Source of the DNA: Halobacterium jilantaiense
GTDB taxonomy: Archaea > Halobacteriota > Halobacteria > Halobacteriales > Halobacteriaceae
DNA: 64,000 nt
Direction of reading: 5' to 3'
NCBI RefSeq assembly: GCF_900110535.1
Contig: NZ_FOJA01000001.1
Coordinates: 2,267,393-2,331,392, forward strand
Part shown: positions 35,122 through 49,688 of the stretch, in pieces
Layout: every line of letters starts with the position of its first letter
Numbering within the stretch: position 1 is the first letter of the stretch
The notes under the pieces: model-generated
The model's database searches: none
The model's input: only the letters and a program-made list of their open reading frames with translations
Told to the model about the DNA's origin: nothing
Translations under genes and position numbers: made by a program

Positions 35122-35712
35122 ATGTTCGAGTTTATCAACGACGAGGACGAGCGCGGTCAGGTCGGGATCGGCACACTCATCGTGTTCATCGCGATGGTGC
35201 TGGTCGCGGCGATCGCCGCCGGCGTCCTCATCAACACGGCCGGCTTCCTCCAGTCCAAAGGCGCAGCCACGGGCGAGGAAGCCAGCGCACAGGTCTCTAA
35301 CCGTATCGACGTCGTCTCCGCATACGGCAACGTAACCGGCGAACAGGTGGACTACGTGAATCTGACAGTGCGTCAGGCCGCCGGTGCTGACAACATCAAT
35401 CTCAGCAAGTCCACTATCCAGTGGATCGGCCCAGACAAGGCGACCACGCTGACGCACGACACGCTGGCAAATGCGACGGGTGGAAATAGTAAAGACAACT
35501 TCAACACCACCTCCGTCAAAGGCGACACCGACGTAGTGCTGGTGCAGCAGTCCGACCGTATTCAGGTCACCATGCATTCGGACACGCTCACCGGGAATCT
35601 CTCGGCGGGTGACGAGGTCCAGCTCACGCTGACCACCCAGTACGGCTCGAAAACCTCCTACTGGGCGAACGTCCCCGAGTCTCTGAAGGACAAGAACGCC
35701 GTCAAGCTGTAA
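35122..35712 (+). CDS. Archaellin (archaeal flagellin)
   Basis: 196 residues. The N-terminus [21 protein letters not shown] is a class III signal peptide cut after Gly 12 by the preflagellin peptidase, followed by the polymerising hydrophobic helix ([30 protein letters not shown]). It is nearly the same as Halobacterium archaellin N-termini. The variable part carries six N-glycosylation sequons (NVT, NLT, NLS, NAT, NTT, NLS). Archaellins build the rotating archaellum. No other arl/fla gene is nearby; the gene stands alone between tRNA-Pro and trkH. Codon choice has more A/T at third positions (for example AAT, AGT, AAA) than the ribosomal genes, perhaps a sign of exchange or diversification. 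Confidence 0.92.
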
Positions 35713-43659: not shown

Positions 43660-44349
43660 ATGAGGATTTCGACTGGCGTCACGGGGCTCGACCGCTTGCT
43701 CGACGGTGGGCTGCCCGCGCGCCGGCTGTACACGCTGAGCGGGCCGCCCGGCAGCGGGAAGACGACGCTGGCCGCCCAGTACGTCACGGACGGCATCCGG
43801 AACGGCGACGACGTGCTGTACGTCACGATGCACGAGACGCGCAACGAACTCGTCGAGGACATGGCGAACTTCGAGTTCGGGTTCGAGCAGGCCGCCAGCA
43901 CCGACCGCTTCGAGTTCCTGAACCTCACGATGGAGCGCGCGCGGCGGTCGCTGTCGGGGTACGGCCGGGAATCCGGGCTGTCGGCCCGACTGGCGGCGAT
44001 GATTCGGCAGGAGGACTACGACCGCGTGGTCGTCGACTCCACGATGCTGCTCGATCACTTCACGGACGACCCCGACACCGAGGTGACGGAGTTCGCGACG
44101 AACCTCAAGCAGACGGACGCCACCGTCCTGCTCGTGTCCGAGATGACGGACCCGACGGCGTACGCAGAGGAGCACTACCTCGCACACGGCGTCATCTTCC
44201 TCCACAACTTCCTCGAAGAAGGAGGGATGACTCGCGGCGTCCAAGTGGTGAAGATGCGGGGGACGAACATCGACTGCGACATCCGCGACGTGGCGTTCAC
44301 GGGCTCGGGCCTGAACGTCGACCCGAGCCGCAAGGTCAGGCCAGAGTGA
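43660..44349 (+). CDS. RAD55/KaiC-like RecA-superfamily ATPase
   Basis: 229 residues, a single RecA-fold domain. Start [41 protein letters not shown] with an intact Walker A (GPPGSGKTT, 28-36), Walker B-like VVVDS (123-127), and HGVIFLHNF and MRGTNIDCDIRDVAFTGSGLNV near the end. This is the archaeal RAD55/KaiC-like group implicated in signal transduction. It is not a recombinase: the DNA-binding loops of RadA are missing. Its stop overlaps the ATG of the next gene (TGATG), so the two proteins are probably partners. Confidence 0.88.
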   Translation: MRISTGVTGLDRLLDGGLPARRLYTLSGPPGSGKTTLAAQYVTDGIRNGDDVLYVTMHETRNELVEDMANFEFGFEQAASTDRFEFLNLTMERARRSLSGYGRESGLSARLAAMIRQEDYDRVVVDSTMLLDHFTDDPDTEVTEFATNLKQTDATVLLVSEMTDPTAYAEEHYLAHGVIFLHNFLEEGGMTRGVQVVKMRGTNIDCDIRDVAFTGSGLNVDPSRKVRPE

Positions 44350-45791: not shown

Positions 45792-45853
45792 GCATACCGG
45801 GAACGTTTGCCACCGTCACAACCCCCTTCGAGTCGGGTGGCGTGTGTGGTGGT

Positions 45854-46822
45854 ATGTCTGTGCGGGTGGCGGTCGGCCCCCGGCTGCACTTCGGATTCCT
45901 GAACCTCTCGCTGGCGCGCGAGCGGCTCTACGGCAGCCTCGGCGTCGCCCTCGACGGGCCACGCGTCGAGGTGTCGGCCGCGCCCGCCGACGGCGTCGAC
46001 TGCGACCACGCCCGCGCTCGCCCCCACGCCGCGCGAGCCTGCGAGCTGCTGGGCGTGTCCGGCGCGCGCGTCGCCGTCGAGTCCGAACTCCCGCCACACG
46101 TCGGCCTCGGCTCGGGAACCCAGCTCGCGCTTGCCGTGTTCGCTGCGGTCGCGCGCGCCCACGACCGCAACCCCACAGTCAGGGGACACGCCCCCGAACT
46201 CGGCCGCGGCGGCCGGAGCGGCGTCGGCGTCGCGACCTTCGAGTCCGGCGGCTTCGTCTTCGACGCCGGCCACCCGGCGAGCCAGTTCACTCCGGAGCGC
46301 CCCGCTCGCGGCGAGTGGACGGTGCCCCCGGTCGCCGCGCGCCACGACACCCCCGATGACTGGCGGTTTCTGCTCGTGCTCCCGGACGCCGACCCCGGGA
46401 AGGCCGGCAGCGAGGAGGACGACAGCATGCGCAGCGCGGTGGAGGGCGCGGACCCGGGGCTCGCAGACCGCATCTCCGCGGTGGTCACCGACCGCGTGCT
46501 GCCGGCGGTCGCGACCGGCGACGTGGACGCCTTCGGTGAGGGCGTCGCGGCGGTCGGGCGGCTGAACGGCGCGTGGTACGCGGCCGAGCAGGGCGGCGTC
46601 TACCGGCCGCCCGCCGGCGACGTAATCGAGGCTCTCGACGACAGTCCCGCGGTCGCTGGTGCCGGCCAGTCCTCGTGGGGGCCGGCGGTCTACGGCGTCA
46701 CCGACCGCGGGCGAGCCGACGCGGCCCGGGACGCGGGACAGCGAGCCCTCGACCACGCGGGCGTCGACGGCCGGGTCTGCATCGCCGCCCCTCGAAACAC
46801 CGGTGCCGCAATCGAGGACTGA
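45854..46822 (+). CDS. Beta-ribofuranosylaminobenzene 5'-phosphate synthase (RFAP synthase)
   Basis: 322 residues, GHMP-kinase fold. N-terminal RVAVGPRLHFGFLNLSL and the ATP-loop-like PPHVGLGSGTQLALAVFAAVARAHDRNPTV are diagnostic. GRGGRSGVGVATFESGGFVFDAGH and the C-terminal GAGQSSWGPAVYGVTD also fit RFAP synthase, which joins 4-hydroxybenzoate (or 4-aminobenzoate) to phosphoribosyl pyrophosphate in the first committed step of methanopterin synthesis. With mch at 4260-5195 it points to a methanopterin-type cofactor in this organism. It is not an intact kinase; the family lost kinase activity. Confidence 0.85.
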   Translation: MSVRVAVGPRLHFGFLNLSLARERLYGSLGVALDGPRVEVSAAPADGVDCDHARARPHAARACELLGVSGARVAVESELPPHVGLGSGTQLALAVFAAVARAHDRNPTVRGHAPELGRGGRSGVGVATFESGGFVFDAGHPASQFTPERPARGEWTVPPVAARHDTPDDWRFLLVLPDADPGKAGSEEDDSMRSAVEGADPGLADRISAVVTDRVLPAVATGDVDAFGEGVAAVGRLNGAWYAAEQGGVYRPPAGDVIEALDDSPAVAGAGQSSWGPAVYGVTDRGRADAARDAGQRALDHAGVDGRVCIAAPRNTGAAIED

Positions 46823-46965: not shown

Positions 46966-47805
46966 ATGGCGACGATTCCGTTCGGCATCTCGCGGCTGGA
47001 CAGCCGCATCGGGGGTGGGGCACCGGAGGGGAGCGTGGTGCTCCTGTCGGGGGAGGCCGGTGCGGGAGCGCGGGAGTTCCTGTACACGGCGACGATGATG
47101 AACGCCGTGGAGTCGGCGGACCGGGAGCTGTTCGACCTGCACTACGGGGACCTCCACGAGAACGCAGTGCTGCCGGAGGAAATCCACTACGTGTCGTTCA
47201 CGGCCGACCAGTCGGAGCTCCAGCGCGAAATCGCGTTCACGATGGACCAGGAGATCGTGATGGCGGGGACGGACGCGGTGACGTTCACGGACCTCTCGCC
47301 GGAGTACTTCCAGCTGAGTCCGGTGCCCCGGGGGTGGTACGCAGGCGCACACCGGTCCGTTCAGGACCTCGGGCACACGGGCGAAGACAGCCGGGACGTG
47401 CTGGAGCGGTTCGCGGACTACCTCGACGAGCACGCGCGCGGCAGCCTCGTGGTCGTCGACTCGCTGAACGACCTCATCGGGGCGCGGTCCTCGGACATGG
47501 ACTTCGCGGACGTGGTGATGACGCTGAAGGGGCTGCGGAAGGCAGCCCGGGAGTGGGGTGGCCTGATTCTGCTGCACCTCACGCGGGACGCCGTGACACA
47601 GGAGGAGTTCGGGAGCCTGATGACGTCCGTCGACGGCACGGTGCAGTTCGCGTGGGAGAGCGGCGGGAACGAGCGCGTGCGGACGATGTTCGTCCGCGAG
47701 TTCCGCGGCGTCCTCGGGCGGCTGGAGGAAGAGGACATCGTGCAGTTCGAGACGGAGATTCACGACGCCGGGTTCGACGTCAGCGACGTGCGGAAGATTC
47801 GGTAG
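46966..47805 (+). CDS. RecA/KaiC-like protein with degenerate Walker A (pseudo-ATPase)
   Basis: 279 residues from ATG 46966. The start IPFGISRLDSRIGGGAPEGSVVLLSGEAGAGAREF aligns with RAD55/KaiC proteins, but the P-loop (residues 29-38) reads GEAGAGAREF: the essential Lys is Ala and the next Thr/Ser is Arg. The Walker B-like strand GSLVVVDSLNDLIG remains. ATP hydrolysis is therefore unlikely; nucleotide binding or a scaffold role is possible. Other parts of the fold are present (SPEYFQLSPVPRGWYAG, LRKAAREWGGLILLHLTRDA). Followed by a coiled-coil zinc-ribbon gene and then TFS. It has its own TATA-like region about 30 bases upstream. Confidence 0.85.
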   Translation: MATIPFGISRLDSRIGGGAPEGSVVLLSGEAGAGAREFLYTATMMNAVESADRELFDLHYGDLHENAVLPEEIHYVSFTADQSELQREIAFTMDQEIVMAGTDAVTFTDLSPEYFQLSPVPRGWYAGAHRSVQDLGHTGEDSRDVLERFADYLDEHARGSLVVVDSLNDLIGARSSDMDFADVVMTLKGLRKAAREWGGLILLHLTRDAVTQEEFGSLMTSVDGTVQFAWESGGNERVRTMFVREFRGVLGRLEEEDIVQFETEIHDAGFDVSDVRKIR

Positions 47806-47849
47806 TCTGCCCCGAACGGTTAAGGATACTGGCCGGTAAGGAGAGGTGA

Positions 47850-48875
47850 ATGGCCGACGGCACGTCGGATGGCGTCGAGGGGGCCACACTCGAAGGGCCG
47901 GCCGCGGCGTGGCTGGCGGAGCGAGCGGACGAACTCGGCCTCGACGAGGAGGTGTTCCTCAAGCGCGTCGTCGCCGCGTACCGGAGCGTCGAGGACAACG
48001 ACCTGGACGCGGACCTGGCGACGAGCGACGAGCACGCGGACCGGCTGGACGACCTCGTGGACCGCGTCGAGGACGTCGAGTCGCAGGTCGGCGAGGCCGA
48101 GTCCCGCGTCGCGGACGCGGAAGCCGACTTCGACGAGAAGCTCCAGGACGTCCGGGAGCGCGTGGTACAGGTCAAGCGGGAGGCCGACGGGAAGGCGGAC
48201 GCCGACCACGACCACCCCGACCTCTCCGAGGACGTGGCTGCGGCGCTCGACGCGGCCGAGCGCGTGGACGAGGAGACCGCCATGCTCACCGAGGACGTGG
48301 CGGAGCTGACCGACCGCGTGGACGCCGGCTTCGAGAACTTCGAGGCGGTTCTGGAGTTCCTCCGGGACGAGACCGACGACCTCTCGGAGAAGGTGACGAC
48401 GCTCGCGTCAGCGGTGGTGTCGATGCGGGAGGCCGTGCGGACGGTCGGCGCGGCGGAGGCCCGGCGGTCGCGCACGGACGCCCTGAAGCGCACGGCGAAC
48501 GTCGCGGGCGTCGAGGAGGCGGACTGCGGGGACTGCGGGCAGTCGGTGACGCTGGCGCTGTTGACCGCGCCGGAGTGCCCGTACTGCGGTGCGCCGTTCG
48601 AGGACGTCGAACCGGGGTCGGGCTGGTTCAACAGCCACACGCTGGAGACGGGCGCGACGCCCGCGCTGACCGCGGGTCGGTCGTGGCTGGACGACGACAG
48701 CGAGGACCGCGAGGGCGCGTGGCTCGGCGCGGAGACCGAGACGCTGGAGGAGATGGCCGCTGGCGACTCGCCGGCCGACGACGCGGACGACGACCGCGAC
48801 GCGCCCGTGGAGCCTGCGGAGGTTCTGGACGCGGACGGCGAGAGCCCGGGGCGTGCGGACGGTGGTGAGCCGTGA
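47850..48875 (+). CDS. Coiled-coil protein with zinc ribbon
   Basis: 341 residues. Residues about 45-110 and 130-200 are long helices with heptad-like spacing (DDLVDRVEDVESQVGEAESRVADAEADFDEKLQDVRERVVQVKREA and TEDVAELTDRVDAGFENFEAVLEFLRDETDDLSEKV). Then comes a four-Cys zinc ribbon, CGDCG...CPYCG (residues about 230-250), and a disordered acidic tail. The N-terminal AAAWLAERADELGLDEEVFLKRVVAAYRSVE resembles a ribbon-helix or short helix bundle. A strong ribosome-binding-like GGAGAGGTGA precedes ATG 47850. It could be a structural partner of the pseudo-ATPase 45 bases upstream. No known family recognised. Confidence 0.7.
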   Translation: MADGTSDGVEGATLEGPAAAWLAERADELGLDEEVFLKRVVAAYRSVEDNDLDADLATSDEHADRLDDLVDRVEDVESQVGEAESRVADAEADFDEKLQDVRERVVQVKREADGKADADHDHPDLSEDVAAALDAAERVDEETAMLTEDVAELTDRVDAGFENFEAVLEFLRDETDDLSEKVTTLASAVVSMREAVRTVGAAEARRSRTDALKRTANVAGVEEADCGDCGQSVTLALLTAPECPYCGAPFEDVEPGSGWFNSHTLETGATPALTAGRSWLDDDSEDREGAWLGAETETLEEMAAGDSPADDADDDRDAPVEPAEVLDADGESPGRADGGEP

Positions 48876-49366
48876 GCGGCGAGGGGCCGCGCCGCGACCG
48901 CGGGTCGGACGACGACGCCGAGCGCGGCGACGCGTCCGGGGAGTCGGCGGCCGCGGACGAGGACGACGCGCCGCTGTCGGACCTGCGTCGAGACGTCGAC
49001 GAGCGCCGCGACCGGGAGGACGACGACTTCGAGGAGCTGTTCGCGGAGATGGAGGTCGGTGACGTCGACGAGGCCGAGGTGTGGGCGGCGCTCGACGAGT
49101 CCGCCGACGAGCCGGTCGTCGACCCGGGCGTCGTGACCGACGCAGTCGGCGAGCCGGCGGACGACGACGGCGAGACGACGGTCGTGGAGAAGAGCCTCTG
49201 CCACGGCTGCCCGCACTTCGCGGACCCGCCGGAGACCGCCTGCACGCACGACGGCACGACCATCGAAGCGGAGGTCGACACCGGCCACTTCCGGGTGCGG
49301 GACTGTCCCGTCGTCGCCGAGCGCGAAGCCCGTGACCCGGGGGACTTTTCCCCGGACCCCGAGTAA
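48872..49366 (+). CDS. Acidic protein with C-terminal Cys motif
   Basis: 164 residues from GTG 48872, which overlaps the coiled-coil gene's TGA. The first 100 residues are acidic and likely disordered, with one helical patch (EDDDFEELFAEMEVGDVDEAEVWAALDE). The last 60 carry EKSLCHGCPHFADPPETACTHDGTTIEAEVDTGHFRVRDCPVV, four Cys and three His able to bind a metal. No family recognised. Translational coupling to the coiled-coil protein argues for a joint function. Confidence 0.7.
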   Translation: MSGEGPRRDRGSDDDAERGDASGESAAADEDDAPLSDLRRDVDERRDREDDDFEELFAEMEVGDVDEAEVWAALDESADEPVVDPGVVTDAVGEPADDDGETTVVEKSLCHGCPHFADPPETACTHDGTTIEAEVDTGHFRVRDCPVVAEREARDPGDFSPDPE

Positions 49367-49373
49367 TTCAAAT

Positions 49374-49688
49374 ATGCAGTTCTGCGACGAGTGCGGCTCG
49401 ATGATGCACAAGCAGGACGGCGAGATGGTGTGTCAGTCCTGTGGCGCGTCCGCCGAGTCCGAGGCCGACGAGGGGTTCGTGGAGACCGCGAGCCAGGACA
49501 CCAGCGACGTCATCGAGACGAGCGAGGACGCGAACTTCGAGGGCAAGCCCACGGCCGAGGAGACGTGTCCCGAGTGCGGGCACGACGAAGCCTGGTACAC
49601 GATTAAGCAGACCGGGAGCGCAGACGAGCCGCCGACGCGATTCTTCAAGTGCCAGGAGTGCGGGGCGCGCTGGCGGGACTACAGCTAG
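49374..49688 (+). CDS. tfs: Transcription factor S (TFIIS-like cleavage factor)
   Basis: 104 residues from ATG 49374. Two zinc ribbons: N-terminal FCDECG...CQSCG (Cys 4, 7, 20, 23) and C-terminal CPECG...CQECG (Cys 65, 68, 93, 96). The tip of the second ribbon keeps the acidic pair D84-E85 in SADEPPTRFFKC, which stimulates RNA cleavage by RNA polymerase. So it is a functional TFS that rescues backtracked polymerase, not a TFS-like inhibitor. A TATA-like TTTT (49345-49348) lies 26-29 bases upstream inside the previous gene, within a CCGGGG/CCCCGG inverted repeat. Confidence 0.95.
   Translation: MQFCDECGSMMHKQDGEMVCQSCGASAESEADEGFVETASQDTSDVIETSEDANFEGKPTAEETCPECGHDEAWYTIKQTGSADEPPTRFFKCQECGARWRDYS

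Follow-up and report, generated by a model that had tools for sequence, protein, structure and literature searches.

What can a protein of the KaiC family do once its ATP-binding motif has decayed? Archaeal homologs of KaiC are numerous and mostly lack a known partner or output, and a cluster in Halobacterium jilantaiense raises this question. In a stretch of 64,000 nucleotides that we call the window (contig NZ_FOJA01000001.1, positions 2,267,393 to 2,331,392), a KaiC-like protein with a degenerate Walker A motif, here named pseudo-KaiC, is encoded ahead of a coiled-coil zinc-ribbon protein, an acidic protein with four conserved cysteines (the four-Cys protein) and the transcript cleavage factor TFS. 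We refer to the first three genes as the module, and we think it fairly probable that they represent, in its haloarchaeal form, an accessory module of the adhesion pilus of PilB3/PilC3 type. The linkage of the module with the pilus machine and with CirB, an intact KaiC homolog, is well supported by the sequences compared here.

A KaiC fold without the catalytic residues

The pseudo-KaiC (279 amino acids; positions 46966 to 47805, plus strand) scored 37.4 bits against PF06745 (cut-off 26.6), which places it within the KaiC-family fold. Its AlphaFold model (predicted local distance difference test score 81, predicted template modelling score 0.82) matched the KaiC CI domain in Foldseek (E = 3.5e-11) and the KaiC, ArlH and PH0284 chains in VIA-align (Z 20.5-22.3). 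Direct reading of the sequence located the degenerate Walker A, GEAGAGAREF, at residues 29-38 (codons at 47050 to 47079); compared with the GxxGxGKT of KaiC, the lysine is replaced by Ala35 and the threonine by Arg36. The pair of catalytic glutamates that follows strand 3 in KaiC is also absent, with SFTAD in its place, and by both signs the protein is not an active ATPase. The P-loop glycines are retained across the family although the Walker A is dead, the Walker B residue Asp165 is kept and is invariant in the family, and the C-terminal KIR is likewise invariant.

The preliminary description of this cluster had read GEAGAGAREF as the mark of a dead ATPase, while allowing that relatives with an intact Walker A would reduce it to a local change. 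No Walker A lysine was found in any of 150 Halobacteria loci, nor in another 20 retrieved with the family profile from classes of the phylum outside the Halobacteria. In the first 70 loci fetched, where some genomes are represented twice, R36, E37 and F38 were invariant and position 35 was Ala, Gly or Ser; the Lys and Thr positions of 80 named haloarchaeal loci read AR (76 loci), GR (three) or AS (one). Deep-branching haloarchaea carry GAGAPEF and GAGANEF, and most of the other-class loci show GxxGAGxxEF, in which various further small or polar residues take the place of the lysine; the glutamate pair was found in none of them. Since no other-class homolog has the lysine, its loss is older than the Halobacteria, whereas the constant arginine of the motif is peculiar to haloarchaea. 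The inactivation is thus a property of the family, and a local mutation of the Walker A is ruled out by the lysine-less motif across all homologs inspected.

A second degenerate KaiC family was also observed, in which GAPDAGTDAY or GASDAGGDAF replaces the Walker A (L163, L164, L170, L171 and L172). It occurs in genomes both with and without the module, and in the tree it branches within the dead group, close to the forms from deep haloarchaea.

Co-inheritance and gene order of the module

Orthologs of pseudo-KaiC and the four-Cys protein were counted in 292 Halobacteria genomes. Both were present in 234, only one in three (G021, G217 and G121) and neither in 55 (phi = 0.97), and the co-occurrence holds even where the two genes lie far apart. 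Paralogous hits in five genomes (G155, G158, G194, G212 and G270) were set aside, and weak pseudo-KaiC matches in module-negative genomes, which were ArlH, other KaiC proteins or the second dead family, were not counted. Genomes with and without the module occur within each of five genera (g8, g10, g31, g47 and g49), and wholly module-negative groups are found in four families (f2, f3, f8 and f9); from this we infer at least nine independent losses, a figure taken from taxonomy labels and not from a formal count on a tree. Presence of the coiled-coil protein was examined in only 80 genomes; among the 55 negatives, matches above background were seen in just two (G014 and G119).

Fragments of the module were noted in three genomes. 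The module-negative G119 has an N-terminal coiled-coil piece beside TFS (L236), G121, which has the four-Cys gene only, has the four-Cys domain alone beside TFS (L243), and in G091 a coiled-coil piece adjoins an intact pseudo-KaiC (L237). These remnants look like losses in progress.

The order pseudo-KaiC, coiled coil, four-Cys, TFS was kept in most of 40 representative wide loci, and most show an overlap of 4 or 8 bases between the coiled-coil and four-Cys genes. The same order headed by a beta-RFAP-synthase-like gene was found in 41 of the 80 named loci. Elsewhere the coiled-coil/four-Cys pair has been relocated from pseudo-KaiC, usually together with TFS. Both features, motif and gene order, are met again across the class, beyond chance, and the possibility that the neighbours are not conserved together, which would have undone the preliminary description, did not materialise.

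CirB as the candidate active partner

In deep haloarchaeal lineages the gene after pseudo-KaiC encodes an intact KaiC homolog, with a 4-base overlap in L182. Its orthologs were found in 234 of the 292 genomes (phi = 0.96 with pseudo-KaiC), and the two sets of genomes differ only by G121, which has it in addition, and G066, G231 and G143, from which it is missing. The protein keeps GKTT, and it keeps the glutamate pair too, except in the deepest lineages and in G002. In most haloarchaea it is encoded elsewhere than the cluster; in the genome studied here it lies about 14 kb outside the window (G000:C1:2252567-2253475). We used the published quantitative PCR primers for cirB of Haloferax volcanii (PMC3941300) to name this gene. 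Because both primers match the Haloferax marinum gene with one mismatch each (the best shuffled match had 6) and the NAD kinase neighbour agrees, the intact homolog can be identified, at the level of sequence, as CirB.

In the other classes, the active KaiC directly follows pseudo-KaiC in 19 of the 20 loci, usually with a 4-base overlap, and the dead and active proteins show similar groupings in their common tree. This pairing, kept over several classes, together with the similar groupings is the strongest hint that the two may form a hetero-oligomer. Proteomics of H. volcanii showed that CirB rises together with the pilin PilA2 under quorum-signal conditions (PMC12240190), which is compatible with a link to pili without being specific to it.

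Association with a probable PilB3/PilC3-type pilus machine

The outgroup loci place the KaiC pair beside pilus genes. In 16 of the 20, the pair lies next to a divergent operon encoding a type IV pilus ATPase (PilB; PF00437, T2SSE) and a platform protein (PilC; PF00482, T2SSF), and in L262 this operon also encodes a pilin (PF07790). With the outgroup platform protein as query, haloarchaeal PilC proteins were found to form several groups. A tree of 58 rows contained one branch (support 100/100) uniting the 16 outgroup PilCs with 23 haloarchaeal ones, designated class A, whose genomes all carry the module, complete or in part (G121 and G231). By BLAST, 39 more PilC copies from module-negative genomes fell into other groups, and those of G066 and G231 fell into class A. 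Of 22 module-positive genomes, 21 have class A PilC, the exception being G143, from which CirB is missing too; all 46 module-negative genomes lack it (Fisher p = 1e-16, a value that ignores shared ancestry); five of the 46 had no PilC hit of any kind, and nine further negatives were not classified by sequence.

The class A locus encodes pilB, pilC and then often a methyltransferase, over about 4.4 kb. The pil-1 locus of Hbt. salinarum is a three-gene transcript of 4.4 kb, shared with methanogens, related to H. volcanii pilB3-C3 and implicated in adhesion (PMC4292770), and PilB3-C3 builds PilA adhesion pili (PMC6491452; PMC4858521). As the class A locus matches pil-1 in order, length and spread, we read it as being of the PilB3/PilC3 type, and class A PilC is most likely the PilC3 of the adhesive PilB3-C3 pilus, a name that comes from gene order, size and spread and not from direct sequence comparison with H. 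volcanii. Among the roles suggested in the preliminary description was surface organisation, and the co-occurrence with CirB, the adjacency to pilus operons and the distribution of class A PilC point in that direction.

The coiled-coil and four-Cys proteins

The four open reading frames of the array, grouped as one cluster in the preliminary description, were all confirmed in position and strand by reading the window. They run head to tail on the plus strand, with 44 bases between pseudo-KaiC and the coiled coil, an overlap of 4 bases between the coiled coil and four-Cys genes and 7 bases between the latter and TFS. The coiled-coil protein (341 amino acids; 47850 to 48875, plus strand) has a short helical N-terminus, a long coiled coil, a zinc ribbon with four cysteines and an acidic tail. 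The ribbon holds two CxxC pairs (C226/C229/C243/C246, residues 226-246), and the AlphaFold model shows a two-helix N-terminus, two long helices and a confidently predicted zinc ribbon. According to the family alignment, the coiled coil is interrupted at a conserved KAxxxHxH motif, whose HxH pair could bind metal. The best-conserved stretch of the coiled coil, at residues about 100-122 (DVRxRVVQVKRExDxKAPADHDHP), coincides with the interruption that separates its two long helices.

The four-Cys protein (164 amino acids, GTG start; 48872 to 49366, plus strand), recognised by family alignment and co-occurrence, is acidic and has a conserved C-terminal domain, CxxCxxF..PP...C.H.GT.I...V..CP. Scans of Pfam and NCBIfam returned no family specific to the coiled-coil protein and none for the four-Cys protein. 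As far as seen, both are specific to haloarchaea.

A model for the module and its alternatives

Our computations establish the KaiC/ArlH fold, the ancestral loss of catalytic residues, the co-inheritance and the outgroup adjacency. ArlH is itself a KaiC homolog; it binds ATP and belongs to the archaellum motor together with ArlI, an ATPase of the T2SSE type. On the model of these two, pseudo-KaiC would be the non-hydrolysing partner of the intact CirB, and both together might form a mixed ring or dimer of KaiC type that docks on the PilB3 motor as ArlH does on ArlI. In this assembly CirB would act as the switch, dependent on nucleotide or phosphorylation, and the dead subunit as an unchanging surface for docking. 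The ring would be coupled to the motor, or else to a regulatory output, through the coiled-coil zinc protein and its acidic four-Cys neighbour. The outcome would be that pilus assembly is switched in step with the state of the cell. A physical complex, its docking and its switching are what we infer from the archaellum system. In its widest form, the proposal would describe a two-component KaiC switch across several archaeal classes, in which the active CirB and a dead subunit that is always required build a mixed ring on the motor of a type IV pilus. Haloarchaea would have added coiled-coil and zinc-binding adaptors, and a nucleotide or phosphorylation cycle of KaiC type would set the timing of adhesion; this version is tentative, and we favour it less than not.

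Several observations weigh against an accessory pilus module. In haloarchaea the cluster, cirB and pilB-pilC are separate loci. No recognisable CirB was found in G066 or G231, and both CirB and class A PilC are missing from G143, which retains pseudo-KaiC and the four-Cys protein. Halarchaeum has lost the coiled coil and kept the rest, with the four-Cys gene directly overlapping pseudo-KaiC. No coiled-coil or four-Cys homologs were found beside pseudo-KaiC in the 20 outgroup loci, so that only co-occurrence ties these two proteins to the pilus. The disregard of shared ancestry in the p-value above and the indirect naming of class A count on the same side.

An alternative that we consider rather unlikely is that the module serves CirB as its transcriptional output. 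In this view the coiled-coil protein would bind DNA through an N-terminus resembling a ribbon-helix-helix, the dead KaiC and the four-Cys protein would modulate it, and the pilus genes would be among its targets, a regulatory link and not a part of the machine. RHH_1 (PF01402) does match 6 of 35 coiled-coil homologs at E values up to 0.1 (best 2.5e-5), CirB abundance varies with the quorum signal, and in H. volcanii the CirB paralog CirA influences both cell shape and the expression of arl genes (PMC13286277; PMC12240190). However, the model of the window protein has a helix-helix N-terminus without the strand of a ribbon-helix-helix, and this end looks truncated in some homologs (L069). Furthermore, the KaiC pair of other classes lies beside the pilus operon without any coiled-coil protein, and therefore the ancestral link does not need one. 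That the correlated genes are simply dispensable functions lost together, through streamlining or the loss of a surface lifestyle and with no physical or regulatory interaction, seems improbable to us; archaellins also correlate with the module, but at phi = 0.43 against 0.96-0.97 among module members, and in other classes the two KaiC genes are adjacent, usually overlapping, beside the pilus operon. The same archaellin profile, with 27 module-only and 25 archaellin-only genomes, led us to reject a role in the archaellum or motility.

The preliminary description had connected the cluster with transcription elongation, with the dead ATPase as a scaffold for TFS and RNA polymerase, and this now appears very improbable. 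TFS (49374 to 49688, plus strand) is a true member of its family (TIGR01384, 80.6 bits; cut-off 64.75), its gene adjoins that of the four-Cys protein in most loci, as it does here, and where the coiled-coil/four-Cys pair has left pseudo-KaiC, TFS has in most loci remained next to the pair. Nevertheless, TFS was present in all 42 genomes tested, including every one that had lost the module, and in several Halorubrum it is about 2 kb away or inverted. TFS is thus a conserved neighbour and not a co-inherited part of the module, and was rejected as a partner on this ground; the co-inherited partners are instead CirB and the pilus platform protein. The transcription link is further weakened by the outgroup loci, where no homolog of the coiled-coil or four-Cys protein was found beside pseudo-KaiC. 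Least credible of all is a chromosomal or SMC-like scaffold, in which the coiled coil and zinc ribbon would form an arm like that of Rad50 or ASRP, with the dead KaiC serving as the head. The coiled coil scored 36 bits against ASRP and 14-19 bits against Rad50, far under the cut-offs of 300 bits and of 700 or more, and there is no ABC head domain. This likeness was dismissed as background, given that unrelated coiled coils match weakly too.

Relation to known systems

Pseudo-KaiC shares the KaiC fold with ArlH (FlaH; VIA-align Z 21.6 to 4wia and 21.3 to 4yds), its best NCBIfam match is ArlH, and both are linked to a T2SSE/T2SSF pair. In contrast to ArlH, it reaches 48.2 bits on NF052589, where the cut-off is 215 bits, and it lacks the GKS that haloarchaeal ArlH-like proteins keep; it does not closely track archaellins and is paired with a separate active KaiC. 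It resembles CirB of Haloferax volcanii and other archaeal KaiC homologs in fold, and CirB in phyletic profile and in adjacency in deep lineages, but the GKTT and glutamate pair of CirB are both absent from it. The PilB3-PilC3 system of H. volcanii, or pil-1 of Hbt. salinarum, is most likely the machine with which the module co-occurs, whereas haloarchaea encode the two at separate places and we found no description of the module as a machine part.

The preliminary description knew of no described system with these parts. KaiC-family genes beside pilus ATPase/platform operons have been noted, however: according to PMC4858521, arCOG01172 and arCOG01173 are possibly co-transcribed with VirB11/TadC operons in Methanomicrobia. 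These are probably the same two genes as our dead and active pair. On the other hand, the inactivation of one partner, the haloarchaeal cluster and the co-inheritance with a PilB3-type machine do not figure in the text consulted, and our literature search found no paper joining CirB, dead KaiC and PilB3. What is new here is the dead subunit of a proposed KaiC-type pilus accessory, two families new to Pfam and NCBIfam, and the scattered haloarchaeal layout. For CirB, a likely dead partner can now be named, along with two candidate adaptors and a machine on which it would act. The proposal of an accessory pilus module leads one to expect an ArlH-like regulatory component in PilB3-type pili, one that would have been overlooked because haloarchaeal genes are scattered over several loci, and it suggests a previously unrecognised control complex for surface adhesion.

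Neighbouring genes in the window

A gene of the GHMP kinase family resembling beta-RFAP synthase (45842 to 46822, plus strand; TIGR00144, 167.6 bits) precedes pseudo-KaiC, and synteny shows it to be the usual upstream neighbour in most genomes. For HVO_2628, its homolog in H. volcanii, catalysis of that methanopterin step is considered improbable (PMC8305020). Further upstream, at 43660 to 44349, another KaiC-family protein is encoded. It is intact, matches KaiC_arch_3 and PRK09302, overlaps a short downstream gene and is kept near the cluster in several Halobacterium. A match to PF01917, the archaellin family, was seen at about 35155 to 35664, with seven others in the genome.

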